From an archaeon (GTDB lineage Archaea; Thermoproteota; Nitrososphaeria; Nitrososphaerales; UBA183), in the NCBI GenBank assembly GCA_021807225.1, contig JAKAPI010000023.1, positions 1 to 10,257 on the forward strand: a stretch of DNA of 10,257 nucleotides, in the 5' to 3' direction. The notes under the pieces were generated by a model, which saw only the letters and a list, made by a program, of their open reading frames with translations, was not told the origin of the DNA and ran no database searches. Both the position numbers and the translations under genes were made by a program. Shown in pieces: positions 2,120-10,257 of the stretch. Positions within the stretch are counted from its first letter, which is position 1. Each line of letters opens with the position of its first letter.

Positions 2120-2259
2120 GGATTAGAGCCGGCGGATGCCGGCCCGGGATCGGCAGTGCCGTACTGGTGTATGAGACGTCGCGGCGAGGTAAGGTTTCAT
2201 AGGAGAGGTGATGCCCGCTGCGTCGGTTTCCATTGGGCAGAATCCGCGAGAAGACCGGG

Positions 2260-2409
2260 ATGGGGGTATGCGACTGCAGGCACCTGGCGGAGGCCCACGA
2301 GGTGCTGTTCCAGACGATATATGCGACGAAGCGGGGGAGATGCACCGTAGCAGGCTGCTCGTGTCAGGCGTACGCCAGGAATCCGAACTACCACGTGGTC
2401 AGCACTTGA
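2260..2409 (+). CDS. 49-aa Cys/His-rich microprotein, probable zinc-binding
   Basis: This short frame encodes a compact cysteine/histidine-rich protein beginning MGVCDCRHLAEAH. Candidate ligands are C4, C6, H8, H13, C28, C33 and C35, in the arrangement C-x-C-x-H-x4-H then C-x4-C-x-C (RCTVAGCSCQAY). Short archaeal and actinobacterial proteins with a CxCxH...H...C..CxC layout are known to me as a recurring uncharacterised zinc-ribbon-like type; membership here is inference from pattern. Codon third positions are mostly G or C, as in neighbouring genes, while the competing longer frames give no sensible protein. The ATG at 2260 is preferred; an in-frame TTG at 2233 would add nine residues. No convincing promoter was seen. 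It lies between thioredoxin and the left attachment copy, so it belongs to the chromosomal flank rather than the integrated units. Confidence 0.6.
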   Translation: MGVCDCRHLAEAHEVLFQTIYATKRGRCTVAGCSCQAYARNPNYHVVST

Positions 2410-2452: not shown

Positions 2453-2477
2453 AATTGAGTGGGGTCGGCCGGATTTG
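2453..2477. repeat. Left attachment copy (att-L) of the tRNA-Pro 3' end
   Basis: This 25-nt direct repeat is identical to 7244-7268 inside and just beyond the intact tRNA-Pro gene; the identity extends one further base left (T at 2452 and 7243). It corresponds on the minus strand to tRNA positions 56-73 plus 7 nt of 3' flank. Sequence to the left is unlike the other two copies, so this is the outer boundary of the array. Confidence 0.8.
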
Positions 2478-2579
2478 CCCACCTCACTTTTGACGGGGGC
2501 AGAGAGACTCTTGCGGCCTCTTTCTTACCCAACGTCTGACCACTCGATTTCAGTATCTTTTGGTTTGTATTAAAGCGCC
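2453..2579. repeat. Left-end arm repeat of unit 1 (core plus 102 bp)
   Basis: This stretch aligns without gaps to 5594-5720 over 127 bp with about 14 mismatches by hand count (about 89% identity). The last 49 bp (2531-2579) differ at only about two positions. It contains the att core, the G-rich motif GGGGGCAGAG (2495-2504) and a conserved AT-rich stretch (TGTATTAAAG, 2566-2575) that could be a TATA element in either direction. The role is probably recombinase recognition, promoter, or both. From here to the end of the FAD-oxidase gene (2580-2683) nothing further was recognised. Confidence 0.8.
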
Positions 2580-2683
2580 GCTCCAGTCACTAGACCCTGG
2601 GTGGGTCGTCCCGGCGACCGCATCCGTCTTCTTATCCGGCTAACTGCTATGCCAGCGTAGCGTTTTCGTTGTGTAGAAATATA

Positions 2684-4048
2684 CTAGCCCGGCCTTATGT
2701 TCTGGTTAACCCTGAACAGGTTCGTCGGGTCGTACTTCTTCTTCAACTCGACGAGCCGGGGGTAGTTATCCCCATAGGCCGTCCTCACCTGATCCGCCCC
2801 CTCGGCGCCAAGGAAGTTCAGGTAAGGGACTCCGGTGGAGTAGGGCCTGACCGCTTCCCAGGTCTCTCGAACCCATGTGATATTCCTCTCGGCTCCCGTG
2901 GGTTCCATCCAGAACCCTATGACATTCAGAACGTATGGAGAGTCTCGGTGCGGGAAGGCGCCGGCGTCTTTGCCGGCCCGCTTGACCGCTCCCTCGAGGT
3001 GATGGATATGGAGCTGCGAAAAGGGGGACTGGAACTTTGATGCTTGGTTGACTAGAACGTCGATGGCCCGGTCGTCGAGCTCTTGAAGGTATGAAGTTTT
3101 CCAGTATGCGTTTATCCCCCTCGGGGCCGCCGCGTCGAACATTCCCTGAAGTGCGACATAGGGCATGGGACCGAGGAGGTCGACTGCTGGCTTTAGCTCC
3201 CTGAAAGGGGCGACCAGTCTCTTGCCGTCTTCCTCTTTGCCCGTATAGCAGAGGGCCAGTGCGACCATTTTGGTCCCCTGAAGAGGTCCAGGGATGAAGG
3301 GCGCTGGAGGGGCGGTGAGCAACACGACCAGTGGCGTGTAATCATCCGGCATGCTCCGATCCTCGCTGACAATCGCTTTCATAACCTCCTTCGCCCTTTC
3401 GAGCGGGTAGAAGGCGGCCCCGCCGAAGATCATAGGTCCGACATCATGGAGTTGAAACTCAAATTCCGTCACGATTCCGAAGTTCCCGCCTCCCCCTCTC
3501 ACGCCCCAGAAGAGGTCGGGGTTATCGGTGTGGCTCGCCCTCACCTTGTCGCCCGCGGCAGTCACCATCCTAACGGAAAGGAGGTTGTCTACGGTCAGGC
3601 CGTATTTGCGCACCAGCCATCCGATGCCCCCGCCGAGGGTGAAGCCTGCTATCCCGGTGGTGCTGACCAAGCCCCCGGTCGTTGCGAGCCCTTGCTCCTG
3701 AGTGGCCTTGTCGAACTCTCCCCAAGTCAACCCTGGCTGTGCTCTTGCCGACTTCGACTTTGTGTCAACGTCGATTCTCTTCATATTGGACAAGTCGATC
3801 ACCAAGCCGCCGTCGCATGTTCCGAATCCGGCGACGTTGTGTCCGCCCCCTCTGACCGCCAACAGCATCCCGTTTTCGCGGGCGAACCTCACCGCGGTGA
3901 CAATGTCGTCCTCGTCTAGAGGGCGGGCAACGGCGACGGGGTGCTTGTCAATCATCCCGTTCCAGACTCTTCTTGCTTCGTCATAACCGGAATCTCCCGG
4001 CAGAATCACGTCTCCCTTGATCTTACCCTTCAGTTGGGATGCCAGCAA
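2684..4048 (-). CDS. FAD-linked (berberine-bridge-enzyme-like) oxidoreductase
   Basis: The 454-aa protein is a full-length member of the FAD_binding_4 plus BBE family, flavoprotein oxidases or dehydrogenases acting on alcohols, sugars or secondary metabolites. The FAD-binding region shows RPLDEDDIV (about 42-50), then RGGGHNVAG (66-74), where H70 is the usual covalent flavin attachment residue, then GGLVSTTGIAGFTLGGGIGW (125-144). The Cys that forms a second flavin link in berberine-bridge enzymes is absent from that last motif, so single attachment is expected. The C-terminal BBE motif is complete (KYDPTNLFRVNQNIRPG). No signal peptide is visible, suggesting a cytosolic enzyme. The substrate cannot be read from sequence. 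The TTG start at 4048 lies 3 nt after the DsbA-like gene's stop, so the two form an operon. It is cargo of integrated unit 1. Confidence 0.88.
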   Translation of the reverse strand: MLASQLKGKIKGDVILPGDSGYDEARRVWNGMIDKHPVAVARPLDEDDIVTAVRFARENGMLLAVRGGGHNVAGFGTCDGGLVIDLSNMKRIDVDTKSKSARAQPGLTWGEFDKATQEQGLATTGGLVSTTGIAGFTLGGGIGWLVRKYGLTVDNLLSVRMVTAAGDKVRASHTDNPDLFWGVRGGGGNFGIVTEFEFQLHDVGPMIFGGAAFYPLERAKEVMKAIVSEDRSMPDDYTPLVVLLTAPPAPFIPGPLQGTKMVALALCYTGKEEDGKRLVAPFRELKPAVDLLGPMPYVALQGMFDAAAPRGINAYWKTSYLQELDDRAIDVLVNQASKFQSPFSQLHIHHLEGAVKRAGKDAGAFPHRDSPYVLNVIGFWMEPTGAERNITWVRETWEAVRPYSTGVPYLNFLGAEGADQVRTAYGDNYPRLVELKKKYDPTNLFRVNQNIRPG

Positions 4049-4051
4049 GGG

Positions 4052-4723
4052 CTACGGCCTCAACCTACCGGGTGCGGCATATTTGGGCAATCCGGGGACC
4101 AACCTGTCTATGGTGCTCTCGACCGCGCCAGCGTCGAAGGCCTCCGGAAGCTTCTCAACGTGGCCATCTGAGGTAACGACGACCAGGTCTAGGAAGCTCG
4201 CACCGTCCCTCCCCATTGCCTTTGAATCAGCCTCGACCCTCTCCTTGACGCCCTTGGAACGCATCTCCCTGGCCAGGCGCTTCTCGTCCAGTCCCGCTCT
4301 GCGGGCCAGCCTGACCAGAGCGTCCTCGGTGAACGGCTGGGCCTTGACCAGGAATGCGTCCATCATCTGGCTAAGGTACTTCCCTGCTGCTTCTTCACTC
4401 TGCAGCTGGGCAGCCTTGAAGGCGAGGCAAGCGGGGAGCGAGTTCTTCAGGCCGGTCTTCCTCAGGAAATCATGGTCGAAGTCTGTCCCCGTCTGTCTTG
4501 CGACCTGGTCGTGGAATTTGGCGACGCTGTCATAGTCAAATCCATATTCCTTCATCCATCCTTTGATTTCTGAGACGGCCACCCCTGTCCTGTATTCGAC
4601 ATGCAGCCTGTCGCGATAGGAGTCTTTCAACCTCCTCAACGGCTCCTCAAGCCCGAGGCTCCATGGGCAGAGAGGGTCGACGTAATGGATGACGGTTACC
4701 GACGGAACGCTGACCCGAGACAT
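4052..4723 (-). CDS. DsbA-family (FrnE-like) thioredoxin-fold protein with CPWS motif
   Basis: The 223-aa protein begins with a thioredoxin strand and active-site-like segment VTVIHYVDPLCPWSLGLEEP (residues 9-28). It continues with the long helical insertion of DsbA/FrnE proteins and a C-terminal thioredoxin half (ASFLDLVVVTSDGHVEKLPE). C19 is the attacking-cysteine position, but the second cysteine of CxxC is a serine (S22), so a dithiol exchange reaction is unlikely. Glutathione-transferase-like, monothiol or chaperone roles are possible. There is no signal peptide, so it is probably cytosolic. ATG at 4723 has TATA-like CTTAATA on the minus strand 25-31 nt upstream, and also GGGAG a few bases before the start. 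It is the first gene of a two-gene operon with the FAD oxidase and is divergent from the ribbon-helix-helix gene, which may control it. Confidence 0.82.
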   Translation of the reverse strand: MSRVSVPSVTVIHYVDPLCPWSLGLEEPLRRLKDSYRDRLHVEYRTGVAVSEIKGWMKEYGFDYDSVAKFHDQVARQTGTDFDHDFLRKTGLKNSLPACLAFKAAQLQSEEAAGKYLSQMMDAFLVKAQPFTEDALVRLARRAGLDEKRLAREMRSKGVKERVEADSKAMGRDGASFLDLVVVTSDGHVEKLPEAFDAGAVESTIDRLVPGLPKYAAPGRLRP

Positions 4724-4747
4724 GGGCTCCCTGCGTGCTCAGTTCGG

Positions 4748-4754
4748 TATTAAG
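4748..4754 (-). promoter_or_regulatory. TATA box for the DsbA-like/FAD-oxidase operon
   Basis: CTTAATA on the minus strand lies 25-31 nt before the ATG at 4723. Together with the plus-strand box at 4766-4772 it forms a compact divergent promoter in a 72-nt intergenic region, a likely place for regulation by the adjacent ribbon-helix-helix protein. Confidence 0.55.
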
Positions 4755-4765
4755 CCGGACGTACA

Positions 4766-4772
4766 CTTATAG
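4766..4772 (+). promoter_or_regulatory. TATA box for the ribbon-helix-helix gene
   Basis: CTTATAG lies 24-30 nt before the GTG at 4796 and supports that GTG as the start of a leaderless mRNA. Downstream, TATCACAATGTAATAC (4774-4789) has a loose inverted character (GTAT...ATAC around 4773-4789) and could be an operator; this is weak. Confidence 0.5.
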
Positions 4773-4795
4773 GTATCACAATGTAATACAAGAGC

Positions 4796-5329
4796 GTGCC
4801 GGGGCCTCCCAGAAAGACCGCACTGAGGAGCTTCAGAATAAGCAGGGAGGCAGACGAAATCCTGCAGAAGGAAGCGGCGGCCAGGGGGCTGAGCGTCAAC
4901 GCCCTAGTATCCCAGATCTTCCAGAAGTTCGTCGAGTGGGACAGGTTCGCCGAAAGGTACGGTTTCGTTTCAATCCAGAGAGATGGCTTCCAGGCGATGC
5001 ACGAAGCCTTGGGTGACGAGGGGCTCATCAAGATGGCCAAGGAAATCGGGTCAAGAAATCCAAGAGAGGCGTCGCTCTTCTGGTTCAAGAGGGTCGACTT
5101 GGAGTCTTTCCTCTCCTGGCTCTCTTTGCAGTGCAGGTATGCGAAGATAGCCGAGTATGAAATGGAGAGGAACGGAAAGCAGTGCTCGATTACACTCCAT
5201 CATGCCCTCGGGGAGAGATACTCCCTGTTCCTCGGGACCTGGTGTGATCAGGCGCTCAGGACCATCGCCCATGTGATTCCAAAGTTCGAGACCACCAAGA
5301 ACTCAATCGTACTATCGTTCGAAGTGTGA
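4796..5329 (+). CDS. Ribbon-helix-helix (CopG-like) DNA-binding protein with uncharacterised C-terminal domain
   Basis: The 177-aa protein starts with a ribbon-helix-helix pattern: a basic N-terminus (PGPPRKTALRSFRISREADE, strand at about 9-14), helix 1 (ADEILQKEAAARG), a turn, then helix 2 (SVNALVSQIFQKFVEWDRFAERYG). Such domains dimerise and insert a beta strand into the major groove. Residues from about 60 to 177 form an alpha/beta domain I do not recognise, containing FWFKRVDLESFLSWLSLQ, ITLHHALGERYSLFLGTW and the final strand NSIVLSFEV; two cysteines (C115 and C127 or nearby) and His pairs are present. It could sense a ligand or act as a partner domain. It is transcribed divergently from the DsbA-like/FAD-oxidase operon with 72 nt between the start codons, so local regulation of that operon is the simplest hypothesis. 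It is not an integrase. Confidence 0.75.
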   Translation: MPGPPRKTALRSFRISREADEILQKEAAARGLSVNALVSQIFQKFVEWDRFAERYGFVSIQRDGFQAMHEALGDEGLIKMAKEIGSRNPREASLFWFKRVDLESFLSWLSLQCRYAKIAEYEMERNGKQCSITLHHALGERYSLFLGTWCDQALRTIAHVIPKFETTKNSIVLSFEV

Positions 5330-5490
5330 CTGCGGCCTAAAGAGGAAGATGCTAGGAATCTGACACGACCTGCGCCCGCCGGCAATATCTCGCGCGGCGT
5401 GCGCCTCGTCCGCCAGTTTGCACGTGGTGTTGAATGAGCGGAGGAAACGAACCTGGTCTGAAATCCTGGCTGCCGCATCGGAAGTACAGT
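5330..5490. other. Intergenic stretch before the right-end repeat of unit 1
   Basis: This stretch follows the ribbon-helix-helix stop and precedes the conserved right-end repeat. No convincing coding frame, RNA or promoter was seen. It contains CTAGGAATCTGA (5351-5362), which resembles CTAGGAATCCGA at 7196-7207 in the right end of unit 2 at a different offset, possibly by chance. Confidence 0.4.
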
Positions 5491-5618
5491 ATGCTTATGA
5501 TGTCAAACCGCGTCCGAAGTTGAGAAGGATTAGCGGGGGCAGATGCCCGGTGTAGGGCCTGAAATAGCTGGGACAACAGCGACTGAACCAGTTAATTGGG
5601 TGGGGTCGGCCGGATCTG
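5491..5618. repeat. Right-end arm repeat of unit 1 plus middle att core
   Basis: This stretch aligns without gaps to 7141-7268 over 128 bp with about 25 mismatches by hand count (about 80%). The last 58 bp (5561-5618) differ at only about three positions. It includes ATTAGCGGGGGCAGAT (5529-5544), close to the G-rich motif in the left arms, and the conserved AAATAGCTGGGACAACAGCG (5562-5581). No counterpart lies left of the first att copy, as expected if this is the right end of an element. Confidence 0.75.
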
Positions 5619-5720
5619 CCCACTTCACTTTTGACGGGGTCAGAGAGGCTTTTGGAGCCTCGTCTTTGCCCATCGTCTGACCACTCGATTTCAGTATCTT
5701 CTGGTTTGTATTAAAGCGCC
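5594..5720. repeat. Left-end arm repeat of unit 2 with middle att core
   Basis: This is the counterpart of 2453-2579 without gaps. The core differs from the other two copies at two positions; one changes the base equivalent to tRNA A58 to G. It contains a GAGGCT/AGCCTC hairpin (5645-5661) and the conserved TATA-like TATTAAAG at 5709-5716. On the minus strand an ATG at 5673 opens a short frame across the core (see findings). Confidence 0.8.
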
Positions 5721-5774
5721 ACGCTGCACGTTCATCATCATGCACATGGTGTCAAATGACGCAGAGAAGCAGGA

Positions 5775-5783
5775 ACTAAATAG
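5775..5783 (+). promoter_or_regulatory. Putative TATA box for the saccharopine-dehydrogenase-like gene
   Basis: ACTAAATAG lies 37-45 nt before the GTG at 5820. That predicts a short leader with GAGGCGAC (about 5808-5815) as a weak Shine-Dalgarno. The conserved TGTATTAAAG in the left arm (5707-5716) is an alternative, more distant promoter. Confidence 0.4.
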
Positions 5784-5819
5784 TCTGAATAGAAGCGACG
5801 AAATCCAGAGGCGACAGGC

Positions 5820-6839
5820 GTGAAATCGGCGGTTGCCGTCTACGGTGCGCACGGTCACACGGGCCGGTTCGTCGTGAAGGAACTCTACCGTCGAGGCATC
5901 CCGACAATCCTTTCGGCCCGAGACGGGACCAAAGAAACCGAGGGACCCGCCGGGCAGCGAGCTGAGGTGCGTGCCGCATCCGTGGGGAATCCAGGGGAAG
6001 TAGATTCGGCCATTTCGGGCGCATCGGCGCTAATCAACTGCGCCGGCCCCTTCATCGACACGGCGGCTCCACTGGTTGAAGCCGCAATCCGTGCTGGTAT
6101 CTCTTATGTGGACATCGCAGCGGAACAGCAGTCAGTGTTCAATGTCTTCAAGAGATTCTCCGAAACTGCGAGACAGGCCAAGGTCGTAGTGACCCCGGCC
6201 CTGGGCTTCTACGGAGCCCTCGGTGATTTGCTCGCGACGGCCGCAATGGGCGACTGGGACAAAGCCGATGGTATCTCGATCGCGGTCGCACTCGACAGCT
6301 GGCGCCCCACTCGTGGGACGCGACGGACCGGAGAGCGTAACCCAGGAGCACGATTCGTACTCACCCATGGGGCGTTGGAGCTGATGGACCCGCCGTCTGG
6401 TCCGCCATGGACCTTTCCCCAGCCGTTCGGGAGCCAGCAGGTTGTGGGACTCGCCCTCTCGGAGGCGATACTCATCTCCCATCATCTCCGCGTCCCTGAG
6501 GTTCGTGGATTCATCAACCAGGCGCCGATGAATGACCTACTCGATCCAACCACCCCTGCGCCCACGCCCTCCGACGAGTTCGGTAGATCGTCCCAGATTT
6601 TCGTCATGGATGTCGTCGTGAGGAATGGTAGTCAACAACGACGGACGGTGGCCCGCGGACGTGACATCTACGCAGTGACCGCGCCAATCGCGGTGGAAGC
6701 TGTCCAACGAATCGTCGACGGAAGGACGAAGGGCGTCGGTGTTCTGGCCGCAGGGGAGGCCTTCGACGCCAGAGAGTTCCTCGACGCTCTCCAGGCAAGA
6801 TATCCCGGATTGGAAATCTCCGAGACTCCTCCGGTATAG
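5820..6839 (+). CDS. Saccharopine-dehydrogenase-like NAD(P)-binding oxidoreductase
   Basis: The 339-aa protein opens with a Rossmann strand and dinucleotide loop AVAVYGAHGHTGRFVVKEL (residues 4-22; GxxGxTG at 9-15). This is typical of saccharopine-dehydrogenase-like and trans-acting enoyl-reductase-like proteins. ALINCAGPF (about 72-80), AAIRAGISYVDIAAEQ (about 90-104) and VTPALGFYGALGDLLA are also family hallmarks. Family members reduce or oxidise varied substrates with NAD(P)H; true lysine-pathway saccharopine dehydrogenase activity is not implied. GTG at 5820 follows a weak GAGG ribosome site. Arg codon use is unlike the chromosomal genes: by hand count 20 of 27 are CGN, with seven CGT and seven CGA, whereas the aminotransferase at 8159 has 11 AGR, no CGT and one CGA. 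This suggests recent transfer, probably from a bacterium. It is the sole cargo gene of unit 2. Confidence 0.83.
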   Translation: MKSAVAVYGAHGHTGRFVVKELYRRGIPTILSARDGTKETEGPAGQRAEVRAASVGNPGEVDSAISGASALINCAGPFIDTAAPLVEAAIRAGISYVDIAAEQQSVFNVFKRFSETARQAKVVVTPALGFYGALGDLLATAAMGDWDKADGISIAVALDSWRPTRGTRRTGERNPGARFVLTHGALELMDPPSGPPWTFPQPFGSQQVVGLALSEAILISHHLRVPEVRGFINQAPMNDLLDPTTPAPTPSDEFGRSSQIFVMDVVVRNGSQQRRTVARGRDIYAVTAPIAVEAVQRIVDGRTKGVGVLAAGEAFDAREFLDALQARYPGLEISETPPV

Positions 6840-6881
6840 ATCAGTCGTCTACGCTCTTGCTCGGCCCAGTCTAGCACCCAA

Positions 6882-6905
6882 TTGACACCTTGCACACTGT
6901 GTCAA
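6882..6905. repeat. Inverted repeat TTGACAC-N10-GTGTCAA
   Basis: Perfect 7-bp arms (6882-6888 and 6899-6905) are separated by 10 nt, 43 nt after the saccharopine-dehydrogenase-like stop. It may be an operator or a recombinase/replication protein site. No T-run follows, so a terminator role is not favoured. Confidence 0.5.
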
Positions 6906-6916
6906 ACGGAGGAGCA

Positions 6917-6930
6917 GATATTCGAATATC
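6917..6930. repeat. Perfect 14-bp palindrome
   Basis: GATATTCGAATATC reads the same on both strands. It is AT-rich within GC-rich surroundings and resembles the binding site of a dimeric regulator. No convincing gene follows within 300 nt. Confidence 0.5.
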
Positions 6931-6992
6931 GTTTCTGCCATGAGCCCGAATCGAGTCTATCTAGTTGATCGAAGTCATTCTGAGCTATTACT

Positions 6993-7011
6993 GGCGGCGA
7001 CGGTCGCCGCC
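6993..7011. repeat. GC-rich inverted repeat
   Basis: GGCGGCGAC and GTCGCCGCC flank a single central G, giving 9-bp arms able to form a cruciform or a tight hairpin. No oligo-T follows. Confidence 0.5.
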
Positions 7012-7140
7012 GAATGGCGTACCGGGCTAGAACTTACCTCGGTTTTGGCTGGGGAAACCGATTATCGGCTTACGTGGCAGTCTTATCCGATCGCAGGCGG
7101 TCTCGCGAATCAGAGACGGGGATGACCCTCCTCAAACTTC

Positions 7141-7268
7141 ATACTTATGATGTCGAATGTCACTTGAAGTTGAGAAGAATTAGTGGGGGCAGAGACTAGG
7201 AATCCGATTTGAAATAGCTGGGACAACAGCGAGTGAACCAGTTAATTGAGTGGGGTCGGCCGGATTTG
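7141..7268. repeat. Right-end arm repeat of unit 2 plus tRNA-borne att core
   Basis: This is the counterpart of 5491-5618. The last 25 bp (7244-7268) are the 3' end of the tRNA-Pro gene and its flank. ATTAGTGGGGGCAGAGACT (7179-7197) carries the G-rich motif also found in the left arms. After 7268 the sequence continues into the intact tRNA instead of an element left end. Confidence 0.78.
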
Positions 7269-7326
7269 AACCAGCGATCTCAAGCGCCCGAGGCTTGAAG
7301 CCTAGACCAGACTAGCCGACGACCCC
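7251..7326 (-). tRNA. tRNA-Pro (anticodon CGG)
   Basis: The minus strand folds as a complete 76-nt tRNA. The acceptor stem is GGGGTCG paired with CGACCCC. The D-arm is GGCT paired with GGCT (two G-U pairs) with GG in the loop. The anticodon stem is CAAGC/GCTTG with loop CTCGGGC, giving anticodon CGG, which reads the proline codon CCG. The variable loop is AGATC, and the T-arm is GCTGG/CCGGC with loop TTCAAAT. The discriminator is A and CCA is not encoded. No intron is apparent. A TATA element lies 26-33 nt upstream. Its 3' portion is the integration target repeated at 2453 and 5594, and the present 3' flank is the right end of integrated unit 2, so the tRNA was rebuilt intact by the insertion. 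Confidence 0.95.
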
Positions 7327-7762: not shown

Positions 7763-7786
7763 GCCAAAGCGGGGGCGTTGCTCCTA

Positions 7787-8071
7787 TTGTCTGAGGAGAC
7801 GAAGACGGTAATCGTCGGCCAGAGCAAGCCCCTCTTGAACTATGTGACTGCCTGCATCACCATGTTCAATGGCGGCGCTAGGAAGGTGGTCCTCAGGGCC
7901 AGAGGAGAAGCCATCAACATGTCGGTGGAGGTAGCACAGGTGCTCAGGAAGCGCTTCATGAGCAACGTCCAGATCTCCAACATAACCATAGACGGCGAGA
8001 GCGTCACCTCCAGAGACGGGAGGCAGCTGAACCTTCCTGTCCTCGAGATAGAACTCTCCATACCGGTCTAG
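7787..8071 (+). CDS. albA: Alba, archaeal DNA/RNA-binding chromatin protein
   Basis: The 94-aa protein matches Alba throughout. TVIVGQSKPLLNYVTACITM carries the first strand, the basic loop and helix 1. VVLRARGEAINMSVEVAQVL contains the conserved ARG.AI...V segment. ISNITIDGESVTSRDGRQLN is the beta hairpin that grips the minor groove, and LPVLEIELSIP is the last strand. Alba dimers coat DNA and RNA, and in some species acetylation of a lysine in the first loop weakens binding; here the loop reads GQSKP, with one lysine before the proline where well-studied homologues have two. TTG at 7787 is preferred over TTG at 7778 because of TATA spacing. It is transcribed from its own promoter and followed by a possible hairpin terminator. 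Confidence 0.93.
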   Translation: MSEETKTVIVGQSKPLLNYVTACITMFNGGARKVVLRARGEAINMSVEVAQVLRKRFMSNVQISNITIDGESVTSRDGRQLNLPVLEIELSIPV

Positions 8072-9513: not shown

Positions 9514-10257
9514 ATGTACGACTTCGAAGCGCTGCTCGGGGAACTGCTCCAGCAAAAACCTGAACTGAAAAGAGAAGACGTGCTGCGCCGCATCGACGAG
9601 AAGAAGAAGACGGTGGGCGCGGGCTATCTTACCGAGCAGGGAGCGCTCTTCCTCGTCGCGGGCGAGATGGGTGTCTCACTCCGCAAGGAGGAAATGTCGT
9701 CGGACCTGACGGTCAAAGACATCTACATCGGAGCGAATGATGTCACGGTGGTGGCGAGGGTCCTCGCCATCTACCCCGAGTCGAGTTACAACAAGAAAGA
9801 CGGAGGCAAGGGGAAGTACAGGCGGCTCGTCCTCTTCGACGGCAGGAACTCAGTCAGGCTCACCGTATGGGAGGAGGGATTGGAACCGCTTGCGAAGCTC
9901 GGCCTCGGGGTCGACACCCCCGTGAGGGTGGCCAACGCTTATGTCAAGCAGGGCCTGGACGGGAAGCCTAACCTGAACCTGGGGAAGCGGGGGCGGGTGG
10001 AGCTCCTCGCCGACGAGAAGCTCGTCGCGAAGCTCCCCTCCATCACGACTCTGGTTCAGAAGCTCCCAGCCCTGACCAAGGAAGAGCCGTTCGTCGCGGT
10101 GGAAGGCGTCGTGAGCTCCGAGCCCCGCTACAGCGAGTTCGTCAGGGGCGACGGGTCGGAAGGCTCGCTCTTCCAATTCGGGGTCGCCCGCGATGGGGGG
10201 AAGGAGACGCGGGTCGTGATCTGGAGCCCCGTCGAGCAGCCGCAGCTCAGGCGCGGG
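9514..10257 (+). CDS. Archaeal replication protein A (single-strand DNA-binding, OB fold), 3' partial
   Basis: The frame from ATG 9514 is open to the window edge (248 aa seen). The N-terminal region, with VLRRIDEKKKTVGAGYLTEQ then GALFLVAGEMGVSL (about 23-55), is the characteristic N-terminal module of archaeal RPA proteins. It is followed by a first OB fold at about 68-165 (LTVKDIYIGANDVTVVARVL, then YRRLVLFDGRNSVRLTVWEE, then VDTPVRVANAYVK) and the start of a second one near 190 (EPFVAVEGVVSSEPRYSEFV, then VVIWSP). RPA coats single-stranded DNA during replication, repair and recombination. A zinc finger often found at the C-terminus would lie beyond the window. Only 2 nt separate it from the aminotransferase stop and no ribosome site is obvious, so translation may be coupled. 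The pairing of the two genes is probably an operon of convenience. Confidence 0.88.
   Translation, partial: MYDFEALLGELLQQKPELKREDVLRRIDEKKKTVGAGYLTEQGALFLVAGEMGVSLRKEEMSSDLTVKDIYIGANDVTVVARVLAIYPESSYNKKDGGKGKYRRLVLFDGRNSVRLTVWEEGLEPLAKLGLGVDTPVRVANAYVKQGLDGKPNLNLGKRGRVELLADEKLVAKLPSITTLVQKLPALTKEEPFVAVEGVVSSEPRYSEFVRGDGSEGSLFQFGVARDGGKETRVVIWSPVEQPQLRRG

Follow-up and report, generated by a model that had tools for sequence, protein, structure and literature searches.

Integrase-less units arranged in tandem at RNA genes have already been documented in bacteria, as the excerpted texts of three papers attest (PMC5704250, PMC3146451, PMC10872708). At ssrA of Dehalococcoides, the excerpt counts 15 islands without an integration module and 16 with one (PMC3146451), and the additive flexible islands at tRNA-Lys of Methylophilaceae are given as 330 bp to 42 kb long with 1 to 63 coding sequences (PMC10872708). 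Tycheposons, in the excerpts at hand, are likewise linked to tRNA genes, use a tyrosine recombinase and carry metabolic cargo, but are transposons of 4–200 kb, those of Methylophilaceae having an internal recombinase (PMC10872708, PMC11389934). Thaumarchaeal mobile elements, too, use the 3' ends of tRNA genes as targets, their att sites being short (median 17 bp), and the survey describing them reports tandem integrations of casposons and proviruses, with one casposon in tRNA-Pro. Its elements, however, are integrated viruses, casposons, integrative and conjugative elements (ICEs), insertion-sequence-like and cryptic elements; its text lacks the words 'cargo' and 'group 1.1c', and its excerpts show no integrase-less cassette family (PMC6563490). 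A literature search on group I.1c Thaumarchaeota and mobile elements found no paper, and further listings, judged by titles and abstract openings, name no work on such cassettes. Here, we describe two short tandem units at the 3' end of a tRNA-Pro gene in a 10,257-nt stretch of archaeal DNA (contig JAKAPI010000023.1, assembly GCA_021807225.1; Nitrososphaerales, UBA183), which we call the window. Both units are probably non-autonomous, site-specifically integrated cassettes that are moved by the XerA-like tyrosine integrase of related elements.

The integration target is tRNA-Pro(CGG), which occupies 7250-7326 on the minus strand with its 3' end at 7250 (ARAGORN; Rfam RF00005, 53 bits). The first-pass annotation, made from the letters of the window, had reported three 25-nt copies of the tRNA 3' end. 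Three copies, all direct, indeed start at 2453, 5594 and 7244; 19 nt of the repeat belong to the tRNA and 6 nt to the sequence that flanks it 3', and the middle copy matches the others at 23 of 25 positions (92%). The outer cores (2453-2477 and 7244-7268) are identical (25/25), and their identity extends to 26 nt (2452-2477 and 7243-7268). The cores delimit unit 1 (2453-5593, 3,141 bp) and unit 2 (5594-7243, 1,650 bp), which are built from the following parts, the cores, arms and junction being defined by repeat comparison:

2453..2477, + strand: att core copy 1, distal boundary of the array
2478..2579, + strand: left arm (LA) of unit 1, with motif GGGGGCAGAGA at 2495
2684..4048, - strand: berberine-bridge-type FAD oxidoreductase of unit 1, 454 aa (Pfam PF01565 and PF08031)
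4052..4723, - strand: DsbA/thioredoxin_5 family protein of unit 1, 223 aa (Pfam PF13743/PF01323)
4796..5329, + strand: 177-aa protein of unit 1 with a weak N-terminal Arc-like match (E 0.02), member of a large thaumarchaeal paralog family
5491..5593, + strand: right arm (RA) of unit 1, type A, with motif GGGGGCAGA at 5535
5491-5720, + strand: attP-like tandem junction, RA1-core-LA2
5594..5618, + strand: att core copy 2, 23/25 identical
5619..5720, + strand: left arm of unit 2
5820..6839, + strand: saccharopine-dehydrogenase-like (SDH) NAD(P)-binding protein of unit 2, 339 aa (Pfam PF03435/PF13460)
7141..7243, + strand: right arm of unit 2, type A, with motif GGGGGCAGAGA at 7185
7244..7268, + strand: att core copy 3, tRNA side (19 nt of tRNA 3' end and 6 nt of flank)

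Both units keep a core and an arm at each end, that is, attL and attR are retained. The repeats measure 128 nt each, at 89% identity for 2452-2579/5593-5720 and 80% for 5491-5618/7141-7268. With the core excluded, the left arms (2478-2579/5619-5720) are 88.2% identical and the right arms (5491-5593/7141-7243) 77.7%, in line with the earlier statement that the units share both ends. Chance, previously judged an unlikely source of this pattern, is excluded by the E values of the self-matches (1e-42 and 2e-27) and of arm matches in other genomes (down to 5e-42). In a self-comparison of the window by BLAST, matches were confined to arms and cores, and the cargo of unit 1 had no similarity to that of unit 2. 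This excludes a segmental duplication that includes the cargo, which the first-pass annotation had named as a way in which its proposal could fail. Among the 25 open reading frames (ORFs) of at least 60 aa in or across the units, three match Pfam, all of them metabolic or thioredoxin-like, and neither a recombinase nor other integration or transfer genes were found; three integrase queries likewise had no tblastn match in the window. The units are thus without a recombinase of their own, as had been proposed.

We used the junction 5491-5720 as a query against 46 genomes of the family, and 8 of them matched at E≤1e-3, one (G001) by the right arm only. At E≤0.1, 15 of 19 genomes matched; in five the match ran well beyond the core, and the other ten were core-only, save that the match in G015 took in 39 bases of the left arm. 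Cargo around the recurring junction differs wherever it is readable, so that further units with the same ends and other contents, which the first reading had predicted, are present in related genomes. The unit in G003 (locus L102) is 4.5 kb long and carries an AsnC remnant (recognized by DNA similarity to locus L103 and itself without a Pfam match), CsoR, Nramp and MgtE_N-CBS proteins between window-type arms at both ends; it has no recombinase match, and its contig terminates in the core. In G004 (L103), core and left arm are followed by GNAT, Nramp, a DtxR-type regulator, NUDIX, AsnC and CsoR, and the contig stops before any right arm. A 3.4-kb unit in G021 (L116), with AAA-TPR and SCO4226-like proteins and no recombinase match, lies exactly between tRNA-Pro and dinB. 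Tandem RA-core-LA junctions occur beside an MFS transporter in G034 (L117) and, in addition to an integrase element, in G042 (L114). A profile of 10 left arms matched 9 of the 46 family genomes and 8 of 400 genomes of the order, sampled evenly from a larger set; these 8 are all family members encountered before. The right-arm profile (4 copies) matched 5 of 46, of which G003 and G034 belong to its training set. Across four units from three genomes, 74 of 129 columns of the type A right arms are invariant, 58 of them outside the core.

The sister genomes G003 and G004 offer a close view of how ends and contents vary. At tRNA-Pro their sequences agree at 98.3% over 11,083 bp, and the 70 bp that flank the distal core are the same in both, but their left arms are just 83% alike and the adjacent cargo is different. 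Compared with the window, G003 has a left arm that is 92% alike, against 86% identity for alba and 74% for rpa. We read this pattern as a probable exchange of ends together with cargo, judging from the sequence comparison.

To see the site itself, we scanned contigs with the neighboring aminotransferase as query and obtained 80 loci. In 20 of these (L001-L019 and L022) the aminotransferase is 71–89% identical to that of the window; nearly all are titled as metagenome-assembled genomes (MAGs) of Thaumarchaeota, Nitrososphaerales or 'archaeon', and one as 'bacterium'. Such soil lineages are commonly called group 1.1c. Alba is present in 19 of the 20 loci and tRNA-Pro in 17; it was not found within the available sequence of L008, L012 and L016. 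Where the site is empty, the neighbor of tRNA-Pro on the cassette side is dinB (DNA polymerase IV). We counted occupancy over the 14 loci that have both tRNA-Pro and a dinB match. In 6 of them (L013, L014, L015, L018, L022 and L150) the conserved dinB start lies 59–118 bp from the tRNA 3' end, and these are the empty sites that the first-pass annotation had expected. Three others hold a core-bounded unit: 9.1 kb in REEA66 (L101), 3.4 kb in G021 and 18.4 kb in the single-contig genome G030, where an integrase relative lies inside the unit and a further 4 kb separate the core from dinB. The distance from distal core to dinB is 75 bp in REEA66 and 62 bp in G021, about the same as the tRNA-dinB gap of the empty loci.

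The recombinase comes most likely from full elements that share this tRNA-Pro and the left arm. In G042 (L114), a tyrosine recombinase ORF (155-1456, 433 aa) stands right behind tRNA-Pro (37-143), and the far end of the element has the same left arm and core as the window units (9515-9637). The first-pass annotation had looked to the window's own genome for a tyrosine recombinase whose element has these arms; such an element thus exists in a related genome, with the left arm in common. The integrase (Int) matches Phage_integrase and most resembles archaeal XerA, at 74.8 bits and below the curated cutoff of 220. R160, K189, H275, R278, H300 and Y308, which we take to be the catalytic set, are invariant across 23 aligned integrase sequences. 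Homologs stand directly at tRNA-Pro in L003 (87%) and L004 (84%), and as a frame-split copy in L101 (82–87%); at E≤1e-6, 16 of the 46 family genomes have relatives. One genome, G003, carries a cassette on contig C3 and, at tRNA-Pro on C18, an Int that is uninterrupted. Integration would leave the integrase gene intact, given that the annotated start of five of the six nearest database homologs, MI(E/Q/G)WG, lies downstream of the core. By its core and left arm, the G042 element appears to be an autonomous element on the same att site and putatively compatible with the cassettes.

We also considered a suicidal integrase of the SSV type, whose gene contains attP and is split upon integration; the left arm would then be the Int N-terminus. 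This was rejected because of the same homolog starts and because codon-position substitutions in seven left-arm copies are non-coding-like (0.346/0.183/0.288), with no third-position bias. In most of 13 copies, the left arm has an open frame that is in phase with Int; in 11 of the 13, read toward the core, this open frame comes with an in-phase start codon close to the core. A TATA-like GTATAAAAG or GTATTAAAG is present in many copies. The open frame and the TATA-like sequence could represent a promoter, a leader or coincidence. A short inverted left-arm-like stretch lies between tRNA and integrase at L114:144-172.

Upon inspection of the arms, we noticed that the left-arm motif GGGGGCAGAGA recurs in four type A right arms at -66/-67 (shuffle p 0 to 0.05, uncorrected) and in the right arm of the G042 Int element at -60 (p 0.009 by shuffling, uncorrected). 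Ten control flanks reach 7/11 at best. The shared GGGGGCAGA motif is thus a candidate arm-binding site of the integrase. A second motif, CTGACCAC, was dropped as an arm site, since it reaches at most 9/11 and is significant in one of 12 right arms.

These elements suggest a mode of array growth. Left and right arm around a core would together make an attP-like site (right arm-core-left arm), which the integrase would pair with the tRNA-Pro 3' end. Integration would restore the tRNA and leave a core copy at the far end, and repeated entry at the tRNA would build the tandem array. The cassettes would provide arms and core, and the enzyme would come from elsewhere, acting in trans on the cassette arms. 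Because entry at the tRNA-Pro 3' end would be sequential, the order of the array should record the order of insertion, with the unit nearest the tRNA usually the youngest. Presumably, the units can still be excised and transferred. The comparison with related genomes thus favors the original proposal of tandem site-specific integration at an archaeal tRNA by a shared recombination module.

Several observations weigh against this interpretation. First, the evidence for the integrase element comes from related genomes, and on their tRNA side the integrase elements, including that of L101, end differently from the type A right arms. What cassettes and Int elements have in common for recognition would accordingly be the core, the left arm and a single short motif. 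We picked that motif after looking at the arms, and its p-values carry no correction; it is not significant in 5 of 12 element right arms, and the Int-type arms of L003 and L017 reach 7/11, equal to the best controls. When the left arm was folded with RNAalifold, in view of the folded attC sites that follow each cassette gene in integrons, the covariation term of the consensus came out unfavorable (+0.65 kcal/mol). Second, the left-arm profile lends little weight: all 7 strongly matched genomes had supplied copies to it, and the remaining matches (G005 and G030) are weak and mostly core. The profile searches therefore mainly show that no sampled genome outside the family matched. Third, 5 of the 14 loci (L105, L005, L007, L009 and L010) hold 1.5–4.9 kb in which no distal core was recognized. 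Fourth, the SDH protein had no match in the 46 family genomes at E≤1e-40, in a search that had no positive control, so that transfer of the unit 2 cassette within the family was not seen.

Finally, arms also occur away from tRNA-Pro, an outcome that the first-pass annotation had listed as contrary to its proposal if a core were lacking. G034 has three left-arm copies with degenerate cores (L146:9468-9560, L118:9702-9796 and L117:9245), at distant places on one 1.1-Mb contig with no tRNA-Pro(CGG) nearby; G018:C66 has a partial left arm without a core, away from tRNA-Pro; and in G002:C17, core and left arm stand beside genes other than dinB. With their degenerate or missing cores, some of these copies come near that contrary outcome. 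The copies may be relics or secondary sites or, in G034, the product of rearrangement, and those of G034 and G018 count against a strict specificity for tRNA-Pro.

The strongest rival sees in the units decayed remnants that can no longer move: complete integrase elements would have entered, deleted their integrase, and left cargo and dead att scars behind, the decay route known for cis-mobilizable elements (CIMEs). REEA66 is suggestive here, with its frame-split integrase at tRNA-Pro and a second integrase fragment, as are the integrase N-terminus remnant kept by L017 and the mismatches in several distal cores. We nevertheless regard this account as unlikely. The type A right arms are conserved and unlike the end of the integrase elements, and so are not random deletion points; the cores of the window have stayed at 25/25 and 23/25; and cargo beside the distal core differs between the 98%-identical genomes G003 and G004. 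A second rival supposes that the island grew additively, through homologous recombination between its arm-plus-core repeats, and that the cassettes are not acted on by any recombinase now. Repeats of about 128 bp are long enough for recA/radA-type exchange, and the arm difference between L102 and L103 at an identical flank could be a homologous exchange. This scenario strikes us as decidedly improbable, since site-specific recombination best accounts for a first entry at the tRNA 3' end that duplicated 26 nt of att precisely, and the family does have a fitting integrase.

An integron-like system with the tRNA as fixed array site, the analogy drawn in the first-pass annotation, would account for short tandem cassettes, one of them with a single sizeable gene. 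We abandoned this analogy as very improbable: Int scores 36.6 bits against the integron-integrase model TIGR02249 (cutoff 265), the core is a tRNA 3' end, and the integrase travels inside an element that is itself a unit of the array rather than flanking a fixed attI platform. An assembly artefact or segmental duplication, for which one might cite the break of the related MAG contig L102 in the core, is barely credible, because the units do not share cargo and the same architecture is found in several separately assembled genomes.

The contents and surroundings of the array yielded further observations. The 177-aa protein was considered as a cassette-specific recombination factor and rejected: relatives, often in multiple copies, are found in 241 of the 400 order genomes at E≤1e-10. 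The window member has no Pfam match. Public contigs bearing the SDH gene measure 1.48–1.59 kb, near the length of unit 2, and were left unused as evidence, short contigs being frequent in that list. When 10 cargo proteins were scanned against the PADLOC defence models, only the AAA-TPR protein of L116 responded, with weak IetA matches to its ATPase part. Searches for a virus or plasmid origin, which also bear on the satellite system evoked in the first-pass annotation, gave no match: exact arm patterns, a core pattern and Int have none in IMG/VR, and the junction, the query used for the phage and plasmid collections, has none there. A satellite in this sense would depend on a helper for packaging or transfer and carry virus or plasmid signatures. 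Two neighbors flank the array:

2217..2408, + strand: small ORF at the left flank of the array (79% over 171 bp to L105:14706-14876; also matched by tblastn; no Pfam match)
7784..8071, + strand: alba, conserved right neighbor of tRNA-Pro and synteny anchor

The small ORF is also present in clean525 (L105), where an alcohol dehydrogenase and a DUF7523 protein lie between it and tRNA-Pro; a right arm stands at that tRNA-Pro, and the distal core is not recognizable. In G016, 22 nt of the tRNA-Pro 3' end are repeated perfectly at a place that has no tRNA, 67 bp from dinB (L094:1502-1523), and the tRNA-Pro of this genome is on a separate contig (L017); the site therefore looks occupied. The sequence beyond this core is unlike the known left arm, and another type of element may use the tRNA-Pro site there. 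In the G042 bin, tRNA-Pro loci of the same type occur twice: L150:9307-9385 is empty and adjoins dinB and alba, and L114:37-143 is occupied, so that the bin may mix two organisms. Several relatives have an intron-like insertion in tRNA-Pro(CGG) (L101:14098-14223, L003:1854-1964, L114:37-143) that is absent from the window's gene, and integration is found at tRNA-Pro(CGG) both with and without it. The single 9.1-kb unit of L101 contains a 153-aa integrase fragment (5755-6216) and the frame-split tRNA-Pro integrase (12282-13579), with an HNH-like ORF between the latter and tRNA-Pro. An IS605 OrfB-type protein with a Cas12f1-like TNB domain lies between tRNA-Pro and alba (L101:14352-15806).

Returning to trans-mobilized cassettes as the preferred explanation, related archaea combine empty sites, varied cassettes and an integrase element that shares the left arm, and trans-mobilization of metabolic genes in archaea is therefore testable with defined DNA substrates. 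This suggests a possible route for the entry and turnover of metabolic genes in uncultivated soil archaea. A more far-reaching version is that soil-type Thaumarchaeota possess a dedicated miniature cassette lineage with its own conserved ends, as small as one gene in 1.65 kb, that is served in trans by Int at tRNA-Pro and exchanged between species, integron-like in its working but unrelated to integrons. We entertain this version tentatively, leaning somewhat against it; if true, it would amount to an archaeal gene-capture system that works like integrons and bacterial additive islands and is related to neither.

How, then, do the window units compare with the bacterial cases? In the excerpted account of CIMEs accreted with ICEs and integrative mobilizable elements, as here, attL and attR are kept, an integrase is missing, the units stand in tandem with integrase elements and the site may be a tRNA 3' end. 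Those CIMEs are bacterial and have conjugative helpers, whereas the present units are archaeal and 1.65–4.5 kb long, no conjugative helper was seen (none was searched for), and their conserved right arm is not common to the integrase element (PMC5704250). The Dehalococcoides islands, as excerpted, resemble the units in their tandem position downstream of an RNA gene, their 20-bp direct repeat and their metabolic cargo, and differ by a serine recombinase (CcrB-like) and a transfer-messenger RNA target in place of a tyrosine XerA-like integrase and tRNA-Pro (PMC3146451). The tRNA-Lys islands share repeats of the last 20 nt of the tRNA and variable contents; they are bacterial, and the excerpt mentions neither arms beyond the repeat nor a linked integrase element (PMC10872708). 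By analogy, the best reading is that the window units are comparable to bacterial cis-mobilizable elements and additive tRNA islands, and that they would be of the same kind as CIMEs, ssrA islands and tRNA-Lys additive islands, in an archaeal variant.

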